Positions 3,576 through 30,477 of a stretch of 34,708 bases of DNA are shown here, piece by piece. How positions within the stretch are numbered: the first letter of the stretch is position 1; every line of letters starts with the position of its first letter. This DNA is from Phycisphaerae bacterium (GTDB taxonomy: Bacteria; Planctomycetota; Phycisphaerae; Sedimentisphaerales; SM23-30). The stretch covers positions 1 through 34,708 of the forward strand of contig JAEIOG010000051.1 of assembly GCA_016342495.1 (NCBI GenBank), read 5' to 3'. The notes under the pieces are model-generated. The model was not told the origin of the DNA. It made no database searches and worked only from the letters and a program-made list of their open reading frames with translations. The position numbers were made by a program, and so were the translations under genes.

Positions 3576-4592
3576 TCATTTCTCCAGCCAAAGCTTATTC
3601 ATAATTGCCAGGTCATAAAGATTTACAAAACCATCATGGTTGAGGTCTGCGCCATCGCAATATTCATTGGACTTCTGACAATCAGCTCTGGTCCAGTTTA
3701 GCGAGATAATCCCCAAATCCAGTAAATCACATGTGCAGTCGGCAGCCAAAGGATTAGAATCTGGATCGTAAAAGAAGTTAAGCTCTGGGTTACTAGCTTT
3801 TAACTGAGGAACTAATATGCAATAGAATTTGCTGTCAAGCTGATTGCCAATCAGCCAGAATTGTTCGAGACTGTGTAAATTTGTAATTGTTTCAGGTAAA
3901 TTTGTTAGTTTGTTGGCAACGAGGTTTATTTGCCTTAATTGGTTCAAATTCCCGATTTGTTCAGGCAGAGACCTTATTAGATTATTGCTGGCATTAAGTG
4001 TTTTAAGTTCGGTGAGATTAGTAATCCCATCGGGCAGGCTTGATAGTTGATTTTGTCCCAGCGACAACACCTCTAAGTGTATTAAATTGCCTATTTCTTC
4101 CGGTATTCTCGTGATAATATTATGATGAAGCGAAATCTCCCGCAGTTCAATCAGATCACCAAAATTCACTGGCAGACAGTTCAGGTTATTATAATGCAGC
4201 CAAAGATATTCCAGTTTGACCAGTTGACCAACTTCCGGACAAATAGTTCCCAGCAGATTATTATTCAAATATAACTTTTCCAGATTAACAAGATTGCTAA
4301 TTTCCGCGGGCAGTTCGCTTATTTGATTATTATATAGATATAATTCTTTCAGATTGGTCGCATAGCCTATACCGCTGATGTCAACGATATTTAGCCCATC
4401 TGCGTAAAGCTTGGTAAGCTGTTGCATTTGGCTGACATTCGGGTCAGTTACACCCAGTTCCGTTTCGATAGCAGCTTTAAGGTTCTCATCAGCAAAGACA
4501 ACAATATTGGGGTCGTTGGCAGTATCTGCCAATATCTCCACTGCCATACCAAAGTTGAAATATATTAATATAAGGAAAAGTACATTTTTCAT
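3576..4592 (-). CDS. Secreted leucine-rich-repeat protein with C-terminal dockerin-like module
   Basis: 338 residues. N-terminal signal peptide (about 1-22, hydrophobic, cut near EILA/D). Residues about 60-265 form eight or so bacterial LRRs with a 23-residue period, such as LEYLWLHYNNLNCLPVNFG and LEVLSLGQNQLSSLPDGI. The C-terminus has a dockerin-type calcium loop, DLNHDGFVNLYD, followed by the helix LAIMNKLWL; the first half of the pair (CDLLDLGIISLNW) has kept the helix but lost the D-x-N-x-D loop. LRRs imply protein or glycan binding at the cell surface; the C-terminal module is typical of Planctomycetota secreted proteins. Start ATG 4590-4592 with gaggaagag just upstream. No enzyme domain seen. 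Confidence 0.85.
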   Translation of the reverse strand: MKNVLFLILIYFNFGMAVEILADTANDPNIVVFADENLKAAIETELGVTDPNVSQMQQLTKLYADGLNIVDISGIGYATNLKELYLYNNQISELPAEISNLVNLEKLYLNNNLLGTICPEVGQLVKLEYLWLHYNNLNCLPVNFGDLIELREISLHHNIITRIPEEIGNLIHLEVLSLGQNQLSSLPDGITNLTELKTLNASNNLIRSLPEQIGNLNQLRQINLVANKLTNLPETITNLHSLEQFWLIGNQLDSKFYCILVPQLKASNPELNFFYDPDSNPLAADCTCDLLDLGIISLNWTRADCQKSNEYCDGADLNHDGFVNLYDLAIMNKLWLEK

Positions 4593-13140: not shown

Positions 13141-14748
13141 ATGGATAAAAAAATCAATTTTCTGATAATCATTTGGTTGGCGGCTTTGGTTTTAGCTGGG
13201 GGGTGCAATAAAGCCAAGCCGGGGCAGTCGGCTAACTATTATTACTATTTCCCATCATTTGCGATTATTGGGGTTGAAAATGACGGGGTGACTGTTGAAT
13301 CTGGGGAGACGATTACCCGCAATTTTTATAGTTTGACCAGATGGAATGAAAGTAAAAATATTAACCGCTATGATATTTACCTGGGTTTAATTAAGCCGGG
13401 GGAATCGGAATATTGCGGTTATCAGCATTTTTTGCCGGGGAATCGTGATACGATTGAAGTAGATTGGCCGGGATCAGCGAAGGCGGGCAAAAAATTCAGT
13501 TTTGCAATCAGCGGGACTCTTGGAACAATTTTATTCGATGGGCAGATGGGTAAAAACGCGGCAATTCCCATGATAGCTGAGACCACATCGCATGGCAAGA
13601 TGACTATCGCAATAGATGAAGCAGAAATGGTTAAAATTGAAAAAGCGTTTGGGCAAAGGCCCGGGCTTTTGGATTTATGCGGGATTGTACTTAAAGATAT
13701 TTCTGCTGAGAAACTTATTGCGTATGCTGACTGTGAAGTTAAGTTTAAGGTTGGGCAGGCGTTTCGATTGGTTGACAAGGCCAGTGTTGAAGATATTGCT
13801 AAAGTTCAAGCGGTGGGATATGATTTTGATGGTGATAATTATGTTCAGCTGGTAAATGGTGGTGTGGTATTCAGCGAAATAATTAAATGGAAAGAAAACG
13901 GTTATAATTTCAAAGCAAGTGAACTGGTTTATTTAAGGCAAAGGAATATATTATCGCAATCTGGTCAGGAATGGAAAGATGCCAGATATGACCTTGATAC
14001 CGAGCAGTTATATTATGCCAAGGCCAGGAAATTACAGCCAGAGCAAGCGAAGCTTTGGCAGCAAGCTGGTTATATGCTGTCGCTGGGGCAATTGTATTAT
14101 GCCAAGAGTCGTAAAATTGACCCGGTTACGACAAAATTATGGAAACTGGCGGGATATGATCTGACACTTGAACAACTTTATTATGCCAAATCTCATGAGC
14201 TAAACCCTAAGGAAGCATTGATTTGGCGACAAGCGGGGCACGACCTTGCTCTGGAAGAATTATATGCCACCAAGATCAAGGGCGTCAAGGCCACCGAGGC
14301 ATTACAGTGGAGAGAAGCGGGATATACACTGACGCTGGAGGATTTGTATTATGGCAAAAGCAGACATCTTGACATCAATGAAGCGAAGCTATGGCGGCAG
14401 GCAGGTCATGATTTAACAGTTCAGGATTTGGCTTATGCAAAAGATCGGCAGCTAAAAGCCAGCGAAGCATTGCTTTGGGACCAAATGGGTTATAAGCTGA
14501 AGTTAAGCGAAATTTATTATGCTAAACGCTACCAGGTCAGTGCCACCGAGGCAAAAAAATGGAAAGATGCAAATTACAATTTCAGCTTGAAAGAATTGCT
14601 TGAACTGAAAAGGTATGGAGTAAGTGCTGATTATGGCGTTCGATTTGCCGATCCGGATTATGTGCCTTTGACAGTAAGTCAGTTGATTGAATTTAAGAGG
14701 AAAAACATATCAGCTGAAGTTATTGTGAATTTACGTAAAAAGAAATAA
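13141..14748 (+). CDS. Lipoprotein with eleven 28-residue helical repeats, function unknown
   Basis: 535 residues. Signal peptide with a lipobox-like VLAGGC (C22), so probably a lipoprotein although the -3 residue (Ala) is less usual. Residues about 30-215 form a first domain that I do not recognise (beta-rich, no known motif). Residues 221-528 are eleven consecutive units of exactly 28 residues, with consensus [LK]W-x-x-AGY-x-L-x-LEQLYYAK-x-R-x-[LI]-x-P-x-EA-x. Each looks like two short helices (W..AGY.L and EQLYYAK.R). The first unit and the last are degenerate. First gene of the likely operon through 21971; 19 bases separate it from the next gene. ATG has aaggtg upstream. A repeat-protein scaffold or binder is the likely role. 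Confidence 0.82.
   Translation: MDKKINFLIIIWLAALVLAGGCNKAKPGQSANYYYYFPSFAIIGVENDGVTVESGETITRNFYSLTRWNESKNINRYDIYLGLIKPGESEYCGYQHFLPGNRDTIEVDWPGSAKAGKKFSFAISGTLGTILFDGQMGKNAAIPMIAETTSHGKMTIAIDEAEMVKIEKAFGQRPGLLDLCGIVLKDISAEKLIAYADCEVKFKVGQAFRLVDKASVEDIAKVQAVGYDFDGDNYVQLVNGGVVFSEIIKWKENGYNFKASELVYLRQRNILSQSGQEWKDARYDLDTEQLYYAKARKLQPEQAKLWQQAGYMLSLGQLYYAKSRKIDPVTTKLWKLAGYDLTLEQLYYAKSHELNPKEALIWRQAGHDLALEELYATKIKGVKATEALQWREAGYTLTLEDLYYGKSRHLDINEAKLWRQAGHDLTVQDLAYAKDRQLKASEALLWDQMGYKLKLSEIYYAKRYQVSATEAKKWKDANYNFSLKELLELKRYGVSADYGVRFADPDYVPLTVSQLIEFKRKNISAEVIVNLRKKK
13801..14724 (+). repeat. Eleven exact 84-bp coding periods (28-residue repeat)
   Basis: Unit starts fall at 13801, 13885, 13969, 14053, 14137, 14221, 14305, 14389, 14473, 14557 and 14641, every one 84 bp from the last, with no insertion or deletion. 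The DNA of the units has diverged while the W, AGY, LYYAK and EA positions are kept, so the period is held by structure rather than by recent copying. Confidence 0.85.
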
Positions 14749-14767: not shown

Positions 14768-17104
14768 ATGATGAAAAAATTAGTTATACTTTTATTATTG
14801 TGTTTTGGTATGGATATATGCCTGGCGAGCGGGGAATATGGTTTTAGTTGCTGGGAAAATGGATGGCGGAAAAATGGCGGGGATGGAAGTGCAGATTTAT
14901 TTTGCATTGAAACCAGTGAATATGGTTTTGTGCTGGATTTGGATAATTTCAGTAAGGTTCGATTTGGCAAACTTAACCGTGATGGAGATTATGAACAGGC
15001 ATTGAACGATAATATTGAGCAACTGCATGAATTGACTGTTGGACAATTAGTTGTTGAGATTATCATTGATGGGCAGGCGTATCAGGCCAAGACTTGTAAG
15101 GCCGGTAAAGATAAGGCCGTTGGGCATCTGGGTAGTGCTCGATTGTGGGAAGCCGGCAGGTATGTACAGCATTATGATTTCCTGGAACTTGATTTCCAAA
15201 ATAATAAAGGTGAAAAGCTGGATTTCGATGGAACACTTGACCTGGTGGCATGGCCAGGGAGTTTGACCTTTAATATGGAAGTAGCAGCTGGTGGCAACTG
15301 TGATGATGCGAAGCTAAAACTGGGGTTAAACAGTTGGAAGCAGGAAGAAAATATTAAGGGAACATGGCGAAAAGGCGAGAAAAAAAATATCACGTTAAAC
15401 TGCAATACATCTGGGGAAAAAGTACCGGAAGCTAAAATTTCAGTTAAAGCCAACGGCAGAAATTGGCCAGTTAGTTTTGAAAATAAGAAAAACTGTTATG
15501 TTGTTAAAGTGGAAAGAATGCAACGAAAATGGGCAACCGGCTATACAGATATAAGAAATTATGATGATTTTGAGATTAAGGTAGAAAGTGATGCGGATGG
15601 CAAAGATATACCGTTTTTGCTGGAATTGCGGAATCCGGCAAATATTACGGGTCTGTGCCCTATTCTTTGCGACCAGAACGGGCGACCTTTGGGGGTTCCG
15701 GTTCAGCTAAGTAAGAACTGGCATGAACAATCGATGGGTGCCTACATGATGGCTTATACGATGTTGCCAGCAAAAAAGCAGGCCAGCTATATATTGCGGG
15801 TTATTTATGGGTTTTACGGAACATTACCGACCGCCAGCCATTCACAGTTGAGTCTGGTTGGGTATGGTAAAAACATCGGCAGCAATAATGGTCGATGGGA
15901 ACAGCTGGCGATTGGATGCTGGGGTGAAACGATATGTTTTGATATGGATATGAGCTGTGTTGATGTAGCTATCACCGATATTAGAATGCTGATGACACGC
16001 AATGCTAAAAATGGGAAAAAATGGAGCTGGACTGATGCCGGCTGGGGCGGGGACTGGCTGAATATCGCCGATGCCGGGCAGAAAAAATATTTCATGAATC
16101 ACATGAAAACCGCTTATCTGGCACATGGGCCCTGCTTGACAGACGTTCGACATGATGGATATTATGGGAGTAATCAGGAAATTAAGTTTTCAGCACAAAT
16201 TCAAACTTTGCGAACGGATGATTATAATCGGGTATTTCAGAAATTGACTTATGAGTTCATGCGGGATGTCAAGGCTGATAAGCTTTGGCTATTTAAGCTG
16301 GGCAGAACAAATCAATATACAACGCCCCAAATTGCTTATGGTAATATTAATGGATGCAGTGGAAATTTGACGGTTCCGGCAAAAATGAAGAGAGGACAAC
16401 TGTTCCTGGATAATGTTGAGATAGATGGTGATGGACCGTGGTGGGTTGGATTGCCGGGAGCGGTGCATACTTCGGGAAAAGATTGGGGAACTGGGTATCG
16501 AGCGTTGATAATTAGAGGATATAAAGTTGTGGCAGGAGGCAAAGTATACAGCCAACCAGTGATAAGTGCACCGGCATTTGGGAATAATCCGGCGAATCTG
16601 GATATTGAATTGTCGGGGCCGATTGGGGTTAATAATTTCAAAAAAGGGGATATTATTGAGTTGGATCTGGAATTGATAACGTTGCCACGGGTTGCCGATG
16701 ACTATTATGGTCCAAATGATGCTTTTCGCAGGCATTTAACTGAAAATCCCAGCTCATGGAAAAGTATTTATCGTGAGGTAAAAGGTAATGACCTGGAAGT
16801 TACCGTTGCAGGCGGAAAGCTGTTGCAAAAGTATCCGATTATAATAGAATGTAAAAATGCGGACGTTAAGGTTACAATAAAAGGCGGAGTAGGTGCCGTA
16901 CCGATTCGTTTTGAAGGATTGAAGCAAGCCAACGGGTATAATTTGTACCGGGTAGTGAATGGTAAAAGAGTTAAGCTTGACCAATCGGTACATGGCAATG
17001 ACTATTGGCAGGTGGATTATGAAGAGCATAGCGGTTTGTATAAAATGAGTTTTAATCTGGAGCTGGATGGTTTGGAAGAATCTGACTGGATTCTGGCGAG
17101 ATAA
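14768..17104 (+). CDS. Large secreted protein of unknown function
   Basis: 778 residues. Signal peptide with two adjacent ATGs (MMKKLVILLLLCFGMDICLA, cut near LAS-G). The mature part is rich in aromatic residues, with Trp clusters such as GGDGSADLFC, KKWSWTDAGWGGDW and DGDGPWWVGLPG, and strand-rich segments typical of glycan-binding or polysaccharide-active secreted proteins. I do not recognise a catalytic motif or a known family. It sits between the repeat lipoprotein and two sulfatases with spacings of 19 and 18 bases, so it is probably co-transcribed and periplasmic or surface-located. Weak ribosome-binding site (tagagtt). A new carbohydrate-active family is a reasonable guess, no more. 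Confidence 0.8.
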   Translation: MMKKLVILLLLCFGMDICLASGEYGFSCWENGWRKNGGDGSADLFCIETSEYGFVLDLDNFSKVRFGKLNRDGDYEQALNDNIEQLHELTVGQLVVEIIIDGQAYQAKTCKAGKDKAVGHLGSARLWEAGRYVQHYDFLELDFQNNKGEKLDFDGTLDLVAWPGSLTFNMEVAAGGNCDDAKLKLGLNSWKQEENIKGTWRKGEKKNITLNCNTSGEKVPEAKISVKANGRNWPVSFENKKNCYVVKVERMQRKWATGYTDIRNYDDFEIKVESDADGKDIPFLLELRNPANITGLCPILCDQNGRPLGVPVQLSKNWHEQSMGAYMMAYTMLPAKKQASYILRVIYGFYGTLPTASHSQLSLVGYGKNIGSNNGRWEQLAIGCWGETICFDMDMSCVDVAITDIRMLMTRNAKNGKKWSWTDAGWGGDWLNIADAGQKKYFMNHMKTAYLAHGPCLTDVRHDGYYGSNQEIKFSAQIQTLRTDDYNRVFQKLTYEFMRDVKADKLWLFKLGRTNQYTTPQIAYGNINGCSGNLTVPAKMKRGQLFLDNVEIDGDGPWWVGLPGAVHTSGKDWGTGYRALIIRGYKVVAGGKVYSQPVISAPAFGNNPANLDIELSGPIGVNNFKKGDIIELDLELITLPRVADDYYGPNDAFRRHLTENPSSWKSIYREVKGNDLEVTVAGGKLLQKYPIIIECKNADVKVTIKGGVGAVPIRFEGLKQANGYNLYRVVNGKRVKLDQSVHGNDYWQVDYEEHSGLYKMSFNLELDGLEESDWILAR

Positions 17105-17122: not shown

Positions 17123-18667
17123 ATGAACAGGCGTGAATTTTTGAAAATGGGTTTGGCAGCGACTGCGGCGATAGCTATGCCGGGATGCACTGGTGTGATG
17201 AATGGTAAGAATATCAAGAAACCTAATATTGTTTTGTTTCTGGTAGATGATATGGGTTGGCAAGACACTTCGGTGCCCTTCTATAAGGAATTGACACCTT
17301 TTAATAAAACTTATAAGACGCCGAATATGGAGAAACTGGCCGCCGAGGGGATGAAATTTACGCGGGCTTATGCCAGTTGTGTCTGTTCGCCAACGCGGGT
17401 AAGTTTGATGACAGGTTTGAACGCAGCGCGGCATCGGGTGACAAACTGGACATTAAGAAAAGATGCTACCAATGATGCCAGGCATAAAACACTGGAGTTT
17501 AAGAATTGGAATTATAATGGACTTTCACCGGTTGCGGGGATAAACAATACGGTTCATGCCAAGGCATTGCCAGCGTATCTGAAGGAAGCGGGCTATCGTA
17601 CAATTCATTGTGGCAAGGCGCATTTTGGTGCGATAGGGACACCGGCAGCTGAGCCATTAAATATCGGTTTTGATGTTAATATTGCCGGCCATGCCGCAGG
17701 CGGTCCGGGCAGCTATCATGGTAAACATAATTTTTCGCCAGCGTTTCGCAATGGTGACCGGATATGGGATATACCCGGGCTGGAAGAATTTCATGGTCAG
17801 GATATATTTTTAACCGAAGCTTTGACAATCAAGGCCAACCGGGCAGTGGATGAGTCAATTGAAATGGAGAAGCCATTCTTTTTGTATATGGCTCATTATG
17901 CAATTCATGCTCCAATTGAGCAGGATGACCGTTTTGCACAGGCATATTTAGATAAGGGGATGCACCCTATCGAAGCGAGATATGCGGCTTTGATAGAAGG
18001 GATGGATAAATCACTGGGTGATATTGTTGCCAATCTTGAAAAACACGGACAGCTGGATAATACAATCATATTATTCATGTCAGATAATGGCGGATTAAGT
18101 GCCCATGCCCGTGGCGGTAAGGCTCATACACATAATAAGCCCCTGAGTTCGGGTAAAGGCTCGGCCCATGAAGGGGGTGTGCGGGTGCCTATGATTGTAA
18201 AATGGCCGGGAGTTACCGAAAAAGGGTCGAAGTGTTTTCAGCCGGTGATTATTGAAGATTATTTCCCAACAATATTGGAATTGGCCGGGGTTAAAGATTA
18301 TAAACAGGTTGGCGGCGTAATTGATGGTGAAAGTTTTACACTACTGCTACAAGGAGCGAAGATCAAACGCAAGGCCCGGAAACTGTATTGGCATTTCCCG
18401 AATAATTGGGGGCCAACAGGACCGGGAATCGGTCCACACAGCGCGATAATGGAAGGTGACTGGAAATTAATTTACTATCATGCGGATCGGTCTTATGAAT
18501 TATTTGATTTACGAAAAGATATAGGTGAAAGTAAGAATTTAGCTAAAGATAAGCCGGAAAAAGTTAAGCAATTGGCTATGGCCTTGCGGCAATACCTGAT
18601 AGAGGTTGATGCGAAGATGCCTTTAGTTAAGGCGACAGGAAAAGCGGTAGCCTGGCCTGGTGAATAA
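17123..18667 (+). CDS. Sulfatase (Cys-type), Tat-exported lipoprotein
   Basis: 514 residues. Hydrolyses sulfate esters, probably on a glycan. Twin-arginine signal NRREFLKMG with a lipobox at MPGC (C22), so exported folded and lipid-anchored. The formylglycine motif is C88-S-P-T-R92 followed by VSLMTG; calcium ligands D42-D43 in VDDMGW; GKAHFG (K165, H167) in place of the usual GKWHLG; H262 in IHAP; D321-N322 in SDNGG; K345 in SGKGSAHEGG. All key S1-family residues are present. 18 bases on either side to its neighbours; aagga upstream. Activation needs a formylglycine-generating enzyme, which is not in the window. Substrate unknown. Confidence 0.93.
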   Translation: MNRREFLKMGLAATAAIAMPGCTGVMNGKNIKKPNIVLFLVDDMGWQDTSVPFYKELTPFNKTYKTPNMEKLAAEGMKFTRAYASCVCSPTRVSLMTGLNAARHRVTNWTLRKDATNDARHKTLEFKNWNYNGLSPVAGINNTVHAKALPAYLKEAGYRTIHCGKAHFGAIGTPAAEPLNIGFDVNIAGHAAGGPGSYHGKHNFSPAFRNGDRIWDIPGLEEFHGQDIFLTEALTIKANRAVDESIEMEKPFFLYMAHYAIHAPIEQDDRFAQAYLDKGMHPIEARYAALIEGMDKSLGDIVANLEKHGQLDNTIILFMSDNGGLSAHARGGKAHTHNKPLSSGKGSAHEGGVRVPMIVKWPGVTEKGSKCFQPVIIEDYFPTILELAGVKDYKQVGGVIDGESFTLLLQGAKIKRKARKLYWHFPNNWGPTGPGIGPHSAIMEGDWKLIYYHADRSYELFDLRKDIGESKNLAKDKPEKVKQLAMALRQYLIEVDAKMPLVKATGKAVAWPGE

Positions 18668-18685: not shown

Positions 18686-20281
18686 ATGATAAGACGCAAA
18701 TTTTTAAAATTGACAGCTGGTTATTGTTTTGGGGCTTTTATAAGTGGATGCAATCATAGATCAAATCATGTAAATATGATTGGGAAACCCAATGTAATAA
18801 TTATTAATGCTGATGATCTGGGCTATGGCGATATTGGCTGCTATGGAGCGACGAAAGTCAAAACACCCAATATAGACAAATTAGCAAAGCAAGGCAGGAT
18901 GTTCACTGATGCTCATACAGCATCGGCGGTATGTACTCCTTCGCGGTATGGATTGCTTACGGGCAGTTACCCTCTCCGGAAAAATTTGTGGGGGCCATCG
19001 CCTGTTCGTCAGGGTTTGTTAATTGATCCTGAAAAACCTACCTTAGCAAGCATTATGAAAAAAGCCGGTTATGCGACATCCTGCATCGGCAAATGGCATC
19101 TGGGCTTTGGTGAGCAAGAACCTGATTGGAATGGAGAATTAAAACCTGGGCCTTTGGAATTGGGATTTGATTATTATTTCGGGATACCGCAAGTAAATAG
19201 CGGCCCCCCATTTGTATATGTCGAAAATCATCAAGTTGTTGGACTGGACCCGTCAGATCCATTGGTTTATGGAAAAAAACCAGAGACACAGGCCTGGCCA
19301 GCTAAAGGATACAAGTCTTCTACCATTGGCGGAGCTCGGGCAGCTCATGAATTATATAAAGATGAAGAAATTGCAACAAAATTTAAGGACAAGGCCATCG
19401 GGTGGATAAAGCAAAATAAGACCAAGCCCTTCTTTATGTATCTGGCAACCACAAATATTCATCACCCATTTACACCTGCACCACGTTTTAAGGGGACCAG
19501 TGAATGTGGAATCTATGGAGATTTCATCCATGAACTTGATTGGGTTGTGGGCGAAATAATGCAATGTCTGGAAGATACCGGACAAGTCAACAATACTTTA
19601 TTAATCTTCACAAGTGATAATGGCGGCATGCTTAATCATGGAGGACAGGATGCCTGGAAAGCCGGACATCACTTAAATGGCGAGCTTCTCGGATTCAAAT
19701 TTGGAGCATGGGAAGGAGGACATCGCACGCCGATGATAGCACGCTGGCCTGGGAAAATTCAAGCTAACAGCAAATCTGATCAGCTAATAAGCCAAATCGA
19801 CATGTTGGCAACTCTGGCTGCATTGACAAATCAAAGTCTAGCTGATAACGATGATATTGACAGTGTAAATCAATTGGAAGCCTTTATTGGAAATCCTAAA
19901 AATTCTATTCGTGAATATCTGATTATTTCACCAAACAGTCCGCAGCATCTGCTGGTTCTCAAAGGCAATTGGGTATATATTCCAGCTCAAAATGAAGGTG
20001 GTTTTCAAGGAACTAAAATTGGTGATCATACTTTAGGTGGAGCGGCGGCGCATAAACTTACCGGGCAAGTTAATAGCGACATTAGCAATGGGAAAATCAA
20101 AGCAGATGCGCCTCCCGGGCAGCTTTATAATTTAAAAAATGATACATCTCAACAATTCAATGTTTATAATAAACATTCCGAAATAGTTGCTGAGCTTGAT
20201 AAATTAATTAAATTATATCGCAGCAAAATTGGACCTGAACCTAAACTCGGTTGGATTAATATTAAACCTGTAAAGAAATGA
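18686..20281 (+). CDS. Sulfatase (arylsulfatase A-like), Tat-exported lipoprotein
   Basis: 531 residues. Twin-arginine signal IRRKFLK and lipobox ISGC (C22). Formylglycine motif C83-T-P-S-R87 followed by YGLLTG; calcium ligands D43-D44 in NADDLGYGDIG; GKWHLG (K136, H138); HHPFTP (H259/H260); TSDNGG (D311, N312); FGAWEGGHRTPM. It is closer to the arylsulfatase A/GALNS group than its partner upstream, so the two probably cut different sulfate positions of one substrate. ATG has aaagga at 18673-18678 with good spacing. The gene follows the first sulfatase by 18 bases. The C-terminal part has a long insertion with a GGFQGTKIG segment not needed for catalysis. Confidence 0.93.
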   Translation: MIRRKFLKLTAGYCFGAFISGCNHRSNHVNMIGKPNVIIINADDLGYGDIGCYGATKVKTPNIDKLAKQGRMFTDAHTASAVCTPSRYGLLTGSYPLRKNLWGPSPVRQGLLIDPEKPTLASIMKKAGYATSCIGKWHLGFGEQEPDWNGELKPGPLELGFDYYFGIPQVNSGPPFVYVENHQVVGLDPSDPLVYGKKPETQAWPAKGYKSSTIGGARAAHELYKDEEIATKFKDKAIGWIKQNKTKPFFMYLATTNIHHPFTPAPRFKGTSECGIYGDFIHELDWVVGEIMQCLEDTGQVNNTLLIFTSDNGGMLNHGGQDAWKAGHHLNGELLGFKFGAWEGGHRTPMIARWPGKIQANSKSDQLISQIDMLATLAALTNQSLADNDDIDSVNQLEAFIGNPKNSIREYLIISPNSPQHLLVLKGNWVYIPAQNEGGFQGTKIGDHTLGGAAAHKLTGQVNSDISNGKIKADAPPGQLYNLKNDTSQQFNVYNKHSEIVAELDKLIKLYRSKIGPEPKLGWINIKPVKK

Positions 20282-25411: not shown

Positions 25412-26535
25412 GCCAAAGAAGTAATAGCTGGCGAGACAACTAAGGCGGTCTTGAATATTTGATAAAATCAACGTTACGGACCGATTATTGGTTTGAAAAC
25501 GGCGATTTCAAAAATAACAAGGTATCTCACAAGCAGCTAATCAGTAAACCAGCCAGCTTGAAGCTTACGATACATATCCCAATGATGGAGACAGGTGGAA
25601 TTGTTCCAGTTACTGCTGGAGCCTGAGTGGCGTCCTTGAAACGGTTTAGATAGTGTCGTTTTTTTATTTAGTATGAGGGTATGTTTACGTCCAGGCGATA
25701 GCGTTTGTGGTTATAAGTTTGCCTAGTAGTTGGATTGGTTTTGGGACGGTTATGGAGACAAGGGGTGCCTTGTTTCTACTGGAATGAAAGCTTGTACTAG
25801 ATATCGCAGTCATACTGATTGAGCAGAGTTTAGCCACTATCAGTTTTTATTTATCCCTTCAAAACAATGATTCTCTGGGATATTCTCTGGACATTGGCAA
25901 CAGAGATGTCGGCAAGTAAGGTTAAGCTTGTAATTTTTTTTGGTATATACTGATAATCAGAAAAAAACAGAGAAATTAAATCAGGCAAGCAATACTATTA
26001 TAAGTTCATTACTTACAAGCACTTATAACAATCTCTAAGTCAGGGCCGATAACTTATAACAAGCTAAAACAATTATATCAAGGTTTGACAGCGAGAAGTT
26101 GCAACAGAATAAAATTTTTTGTTTGCAACAATAAGGGAATTTACATAAACTGTGTTCGATAAACAGGTTGATGACACAACCACTAATATCCATGAAACGG
26201 ATATGGTTTTTTCTATTTTTAAAAGAGACAGGAAAGATCAGATGTGACCACAAATACCTGCGTCCCTGGCTAACCATCAGGAGTTCCCGCAAAATTAAGT
26301 CATCAAAGAAAGTAAGGTTTTTGTAACGTTATATCCAAAGGGTATGAGTTTTTCTGACAAGATAAGTTAAAGTCTTATTTTGCAACACCTTATGTGAGAT
26401 GTTACTAGAGAAAAGCTCGACTGTATGCATAATAAATAACGGATAGAACCTCCCGCCGGTAAAAGAAGGCCTTCCTCCCTTGCGATGGGGAAAAAAACCA
26501 GCGGGATAGTCCAACCTTGTAGAAGGAGTATTGCC
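25412..26535. other. Long intergenic with secretin remnant and structured leader
   Basis: About 1.1 kb with no intact gene. Holds the secretin-like remnant at 25444-25626, a hairpin agacaagg/ccttgttt at 25756-25775, a weak stem followed by T6 at 26186-26212, and a possible structured leader at 26449-26516 where cccgccggt and accagcggg can pair around a gaaggccttc palindrome. The secretin ribosome-binding site aaggag is at 26523-26528. An 85-codon minus-strand frame (26035-26292) has no start signal or familiar feature. Confidence 0.5.
25444..25626 (+). pseudogene. Remnant of a secretin-like gene
   Basis: 60 codons open between stops, in a different frame from the gene ending at 25411 and 32 bases after it. 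It reads GGLEYLIKSTLRTDYWFENG then DFKNNKVSHKQL, which aligns with LQDLIMSTIAPETWLYGN and NFGNNRLGQQ of the intact secretin (about residues 750-778) at L, LI, ST, W, N, F, NN and Q. Beyond that the frame (..HIPMMETGGIVPVTAGA) no longer aligns. This looks like what is left of the part lost by the shorter paralogue. Confidence 0.5.

Positions 26536-26538
<3 letters not shown>
26523..26538 (+). promoter_or_regulatory. Ribosome-binding site deciding the secretin TTG start
   Basis: aaggag at 26523-26528 is 7 bases before TTG at 26536-26538. The in-frame ATG at 26485 has no such site, lies inside the possible leader hairpin, and would put 17 extra residues before the signal peptide. Confidence 0.6.
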
Positions 26539-29949
<3,411 letters not shown>

Positions 29950-30139: not shown

Positions 30140-30286
30140 ATGATTCTTGCCGGGGTAAAGATGAGCTGAGCCAGGGAAAAAATGATTCTTGCCGAGGTGG
30201 GAATCATCTTTGCCGAAGCAAGAATGGGCCTTGCCGAGGCGGGAATGAGCCTTGCCGAGTCAAGAATGATTATTGCCGAGGGGGAA
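30140..30286. repeat. 21-bp minisatellite, seven units
   Basis: Seven consecutive 21-bp units (30140, 30161, 30182, 30203, 30224, 30245, 30266) with core ttgccgag, no indel between them. Being a multiple of three, the array gives heptad peptides in plus-strand frame (M-x-[LI]-AE-x-x, broken by one TGA in the second unit) and in a minus-strand frame (IPASAR-like). Units differ by several substitutions, so it is not very recent. Confidence 0.8.
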
Positions 30287-30477
30287 TTGTCCAATACTGG
30301 TCAATTAATCTGCATTTAACCGCTGTAATCGAGGTTTTTCCCGGTTTCAATCAGTTTCTAACCGCTGATTGGCCCAAATCAAGCCAGATCGGTATCAATT
30401 GTTGAGCATCGGCCCCAATCGGTGACTGATATATTGATTCCCAACCCGGTACAATTCTGCTGCTTATGGTCAAAAAA

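Follow-up and report, generated by a model that had tools for sequence, protein, structure and literature searches.

Proteins in which each repeating unit consists of a pair of helices are well known, and proteins made of helical repeats are in general common. Among natural alpha/alpha repeats, those of TAL effectors and mTERF proteins bind nucleic acids, follow another sequence consensus and are built from units longer than the 28 residues encountered here, and the best structural match to the protein described below is an artificial one, a designed left-handed alpha/alpha toroid (PDB 5byo). The envelopes of planctomycetes are unusual and contain many unannotated proteins. In the window, by which we mean the whole analysed stretch of 34,708 nucleotides from a member of the Phycisphaerae, a gene for a lipoprotein with an array of 28-residue units was found (Table 1). 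The array represents a real alpha/alpha repeat family, as yet without a name, among lipoproteins of the planctomycete envelope.

Table 1. Positions of the repeat gene, its parts and the genes following it in the window
Feature	Positions	Strand	Basis
Whole gene, 535-residue lipoprotein with alpha/alpha repeats	13141..14748	+	ORF listing, translation
Signal peptide with lipobox, ...LAGGC (residues 1-22)	13141..13206	+	Sequence; Cys also in both orthologs
N-terminal beta-rich module (~residues 23-158)	13207..13614	+	AF2, 3-sequence alignment
Pre-solenoid helices and probable degenerate units (~residues 176-221)	13666..13803	+	Predicted helix spacing
Ten exact, consecutive 28-residue alpha/alpha units (residues 222-501)	13804..14643	+	Self-comparison, predicted structure
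C-terminal cap (residues 479-535), comprising the final units, among them that of 29 residues	14575..14745	+	Ortholog identity, profile
Next gene, 778-residue secreted protein without Pfam match, 20 bp downstream of the repeat gene	14768..17104	+	
Two sulfatase genes after the 778-residue gene	17123-18667, 18686-20281		

When residues 201-535 were compared with themselves, the score at a lag of 28 residues was +456 (BLOSUM62), whereas none of 500 shuffles exceeded -76 at any lag. The most constant columns of the ten units are W1 (9/10), G5, Y6, L13 and K17 (8/10 each), A4 and Y15 (7/10 each) and E25 and A26 (6/10 each). The sequence-only reading had counted eleven units in perfect register without any insertion or deletion. 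The strong periodicity and ten exact units are retained from that description; the eleventh block (residues 502-529) leaves the strict register by one extra residue. Predicted helices start at 231, 259, 287 and onwards to 455 and 483 with a spacing of 28, followed by 512 with a spacing of 29, and the motif Y-N-F-S-L-K-E-L is shifted to Y-V-P-L-T-V-S-Q-L in this last block; one predicted helix start within the array, at 276, is displaced. The register is kept in orthologs but is no rule for the wider family, the units of the relative G002 being of irregular length. A degenerate unit (helices 204-210 and 216-224) probably precedes the array, as judged from predicted helix spacings of 28 (176 to 204) and 27 (204 to 231); it shows a one-residue gap in the alignment with both orthologs. 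Its sequence score is weak and was reached by 67 of 300 shuffles for the window protein and by 10 and 16 of 300 for the orthologs. For the helix unit starting at 176 the shuffle test yielded no sequence support, the spacing alone being in agreement. A subdivision of the unit into two 14-residue halves was rejected: lags 13, 14 and 15 come directly behind 28 and 56, but the 95% level of column-permuted sequences was exceeded in a single one of the three proteins.

On the DNA level, TRF reported no tandem repeat over the unit array. Mean identity between units amounts to 45%, with 57% at codon position 2 and 34% at codon position 3. The low overall and third-position values indicate that the unit duplications are old, and the much higher identity at position 2 that the repeat pattern is held by selection on the protein. 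Together with the register kept by the orthologs this bears out the earlier proposal that the units are under selection.

The repeat gene is present as a single copy in its own genome and, with this genome counted, the repeat occurs in 5 of the 161 genomes of the order Sedimentisphaerales. A profile of the C-terminal region matched 7 of the 387 genomes that were sampled in the class, again including this one. Two of the relatives detected by this profile, G570 (E 7e-19) and G694 (E 6e-13), lie outside the set from which it was built. Full-length orthologs are encoded in two metagenome-assembled genomes of Sedimentisphaerales, G139 (JANQGW010000073.1) and G094 (JAFGBG010000026.1), and share 38% and 32% identity, respectively, with the window protein. 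Within the exact array, the alignment contains gaps of whole 28-residue blocks only, two of which are missing in G139 and one in G094. Given in the order window-G139, window-G094 and G139-G094, identities rise from 18/12/26% for residues 23-110 and 34/32/38% for residues 111-226 to 43/37/50% for the units at 227-478, and the C-terminal cap (479-535) is the most conserved segment of the protein with 56/44/58%. Units resemble each other slightly to moderately more closely within a protein (identities of 0.37, 0.39 and 0.44) than between proteins (0.31-0.36), a pattern that fits lineage-specific turnover without proving it. Long unrelated linkers, Pro/Ala-rich or coiled-coil-like, split the array of G507 and G397, in which the start and the cap are retained. 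Homology of the N-terminal module is weak in G397 and G142, which ranked first among 1000 shuffles with E values of 0.06-0.12, and in G570 and G694 the module was not separated from 1000 shuffles.

Searches of phages, plasmids and viral contigs brought up no relative; weak plasmid matches in Euzebya (E 0.2), an unannotated stretch of Salinivibrio and Rhizobium were dismissed as unrelated or unconvincing. Weak matches in the phylum (E 0.0005-0.008) are mostly short two-hairpin stretches of the LSADDIIKLKQAxVxEKVIAAML type behind apparent signal peptides. Such stretches were noted at L118, L119, L121, L122, L124 and L126 in other Planctomycetota, and the two that were checked belong to no Pfam family. 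They are possibly distant kin of the unit.

The fold of the lipoprotein has been predicted. A full-length AF2 model, which was calculated from one sequence and thus has to be viewed in the light of the tendency of AF2 to over-predict regular solenoids for repeats, shows two helices of about nine residues per unit in a regular solenoid at high confidence, with pLDDT values mostly above 90 for residues 214-535 (residues 12-213 lie outside the model). The folded solenoid anticipated in the sequence-only reading is therefore what structure prediction returns. A second AF2 model covers residues 23-257 and is based on an alignment of three sequences, the window protein and two orthologs (pTM 0.73, mean pLDDT 74.6). 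In it, a beta-rich module is succeeded by helices that continue into the first units, and these units look the same as in the single-sequence model. PDB 5byo, the best match, likewise has units of two short helices (Foldseek E 5.7e-6; VIA Z 8.3 over 317 residues); its global rmsd of about 30 A restricts the likeness to local unit geometry. Natural alpha/alpha repeats among the VIA matches are TALE (Z ~6) and mTERF (Z ~5), values too low for a claim of common origin with an envelope lipoprotein, as for helical repeats a VIA Z below about 13 may reflect only a common arrangement. A structure search of BFVD gave no match. We accordingly regard the array as an alpha/alpha solenoid, probably of the left-handed type, and claim no relationship to any of the matched folds. 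For the N-terminal beta-rich module no convincing fold match was obtained in the PDB (best Foldseek E 0.014, best VIA Z 4.0), nor was there a match in Pfam.

The window protein starts with MDKKINFLIIIWLAALVLAGGC, a signal peptide with the lipobox LVLAGGC; the corresponding sites read SGC and AGC in the two orthologs, which identifies these proteins as bacterial lipoproteins. All eight proteins whose start is intact, among them the window protein and the relatives G142, G570, G694, G507 and G397, have a lipobox-like Cys. The lipobox had also been taken as a sign that the solenoid faces the outside of the cell. This conclusion does not follow, because a lipobox indicates lipidation and is silent on membrane or face; a periplasmic location is at least as likely.

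In searches of Pfam, NCBIfam and PDB sequences the window protein had no match above cutoff, in agreement with the earlier statement that the unit has no named family, and no description of the unit motif was found in the literature. Profiles that pass their cutoffs in relatives and the TALE and mTERF structures among the VIA matches could nevertheless be taken to mean that the protein belongs to a repeat or domain family described earlier (Nif11, SUFBD core, TPR, TALE, mTERF or decapeptide), which we regard as quite improbable. Nif11 (PF07862, 48 positions) scored 30.0 bits in G002 and 27.3 bits in G570 against a cutoff of 23.8, leader_Nif11 (TIGR03798) 43.4 versus 32.3 bits in G002, and SUFBD_core (PF01458, a core of 232 positions) 42.4 versus 27 in G694 only. 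These totals sum several partial matches, the best stretches of which span 12-28 model residues, and the window protein passes no cutoff. Its Nif11 score is 13.8 bits with a best stretch of 12 residues, so membership in this family, for which short repeated partial matches inflate the scores, was rejected. The same applies to the SUFBD core, with a best stretch of 19 residues in G694 and no match in the window protein in the Pfam search, and to TPR, for which no match appeared at E values up to 10 and whose repeat comprises 34 rather than 28 residues. In terms of sequence, the Nif11-type matches are best understood as a G-Y-x-[LF]-[ST]-x-x-E-L turn motif that G002 and G570 have in common with Nif11 and Nif11-like leader peptides, the remainder of the domain being absent from these relatives, and the SUFBD match as a short helical stretch; neither denotes membership. 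The structural matches, with Z values of at most 8.3, remain under the level that is meaningful for helical repeats.

Distant members of the family presumably resemble unnamed helical repeats with the motif HGV-[TS]-P-E-[FY] in the tails of some M56/BlaR1-like peptidases. The consensus that we assume for these tails, GYxxLTxDxLIxLKxHGVTPEFIxEL, is similar to units of G570 (LIDLKWQGVSTSYAAGMKQAGYDFT) and G694 (HSHGVSPAYVRAI). If this likeness is true, the unit would be a divergent version of a repeat that is widespread but has no name. A tail of this type was not found in phages, plasmids, viral contigs or the phylum sample, and M56 genes fetched from Sedimentisphaerales do not contain the repeat.

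Upstream of the repeat gene lies a divergent GH76-type gene. The repeat gene and the following gene for the 778-residue secreted protein are possibly co-transcribed; the latter protein may be a novel part of a locus for sulfated polysaccharides. The ortholog in G139 adjoins tandem membrane proteins of about 320 residues, that in G094 FeoB-like and peptidase-like genes (named by inspection). As the neighbours differ in both orthologs, linkage gives no function and the sulfatases were discarded as a functional clue. Beside the G139 ortholog, four tandem paralogous membrane-associated proteins of about 320 residues are encoded (L027, 2649-6803). Elsewhere in the window, a secretin of 1154 residues with TPR repeats (26485-29949) contains Gly/Met-rich tandem repeats (28297-28752, plus strand; GGCGGCATG units of 9-45 bp), a 21/42-bp tandem repeat (AATGAGCCTTGCCGAGGCGGG) is situated at 30181-30287 between the secretin gene and a gene for a metallo-beta-lactamase-fold protein, and a leucine-rich-repeat protein (3576-4592, minus strand) exhibits a C-terminal dockerin type I match below cutoff (17.1 versus 22.9 bits).

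With regard to function, we tentatively favour, at slightly less than an even chance, a lipid-anchored rod in the envelope that would hold the conserved cap off the membrane to meet a partner and whose length would be set by the number of units. Anchoring would be provided by the lipid and the N-terminal beta-rich module, and the solenoid, with its roughly ten exact units and degenerate end units, would form the rod; the cap would thereby be kept at a defined distance from the membrane and could meet its partner there, and gain or loss of whole units would tune the length. We infer this role from a periodicity that is far above that of shuffles and conserved at the protein rather than the DNA level, from the predicted solenoid, the loss of whole blocks in G139 and G094 and the lipobox-like Cys in every intact start, and from a cap that is the best conserved part and, like the start, persists across the linkers of G507 and G397. 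Against the rod stand the full-length model from one sequence, in which the solenoid may be over-predicted, the weak homology of the N-terminal module to that of distant relatives, the lack of genetic linkage pointing to a partner and the probably exposed residue at position 15, whose aromatic nature in most units of the window protein and of both orthologs would suit a solenoid that binds something with its side.

The main rival takes this last point up and proposes a lateral scaffold, a groove or face of which would bind a peptide or polysaccharide unit by unit through a ladder of aromatic residues at position 15 together with the basic residues K17/R19. We consider it possible but rather doubtful. 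Y15 and K17 recur in the window protein with the frequencies given above, W/Y15 (Tyr in the window protein, Trp in the orthologs) and KQR are found in nearly every unit of both orthologs, the solenoid is basic with a pI of 9.1 (window protein) or 9.4 (G139), and the gene precedes the 778-residue secreted protein and two sulfatases and adjoins the GH76-type gene. On the other hand, G570 and G142 are devoid of the aromatic ladder, G094 has a net charge of 0, the orthologs lack a polysaccharide-gene neighbourhood and the aromatics may merely stack between units. Sparse distribution within the order, variable unit number and the linker within the array of G507 and G397 would also be expected of a helical filler under low constraint and without a specific role, in which internal duplications are tolerated because they are foldable. 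Such a filler is unlikely in view of the conservation of codon position 2 far above position 3, the maintenance of the register by three diverged orthologs along about 300 residues and the better conservation of the cap than of the remaining protein.

A repeat family by itself settles no open question. That the 28-residue two-helix repeat defines an undescribed family of lipid-anchored, length-tunable planctomycete envelope rods that have an N-terminal module of their own and a conserved cap is conceivable, and we put this broader conclusion forward with reserve. As a natural short alpha/alpha unit, the repeat is of interest for the design of repeat proteins. For annotation, the clear unit, the caps and the variation in length by whole units offer a handle, since a profile of the unit can be built.
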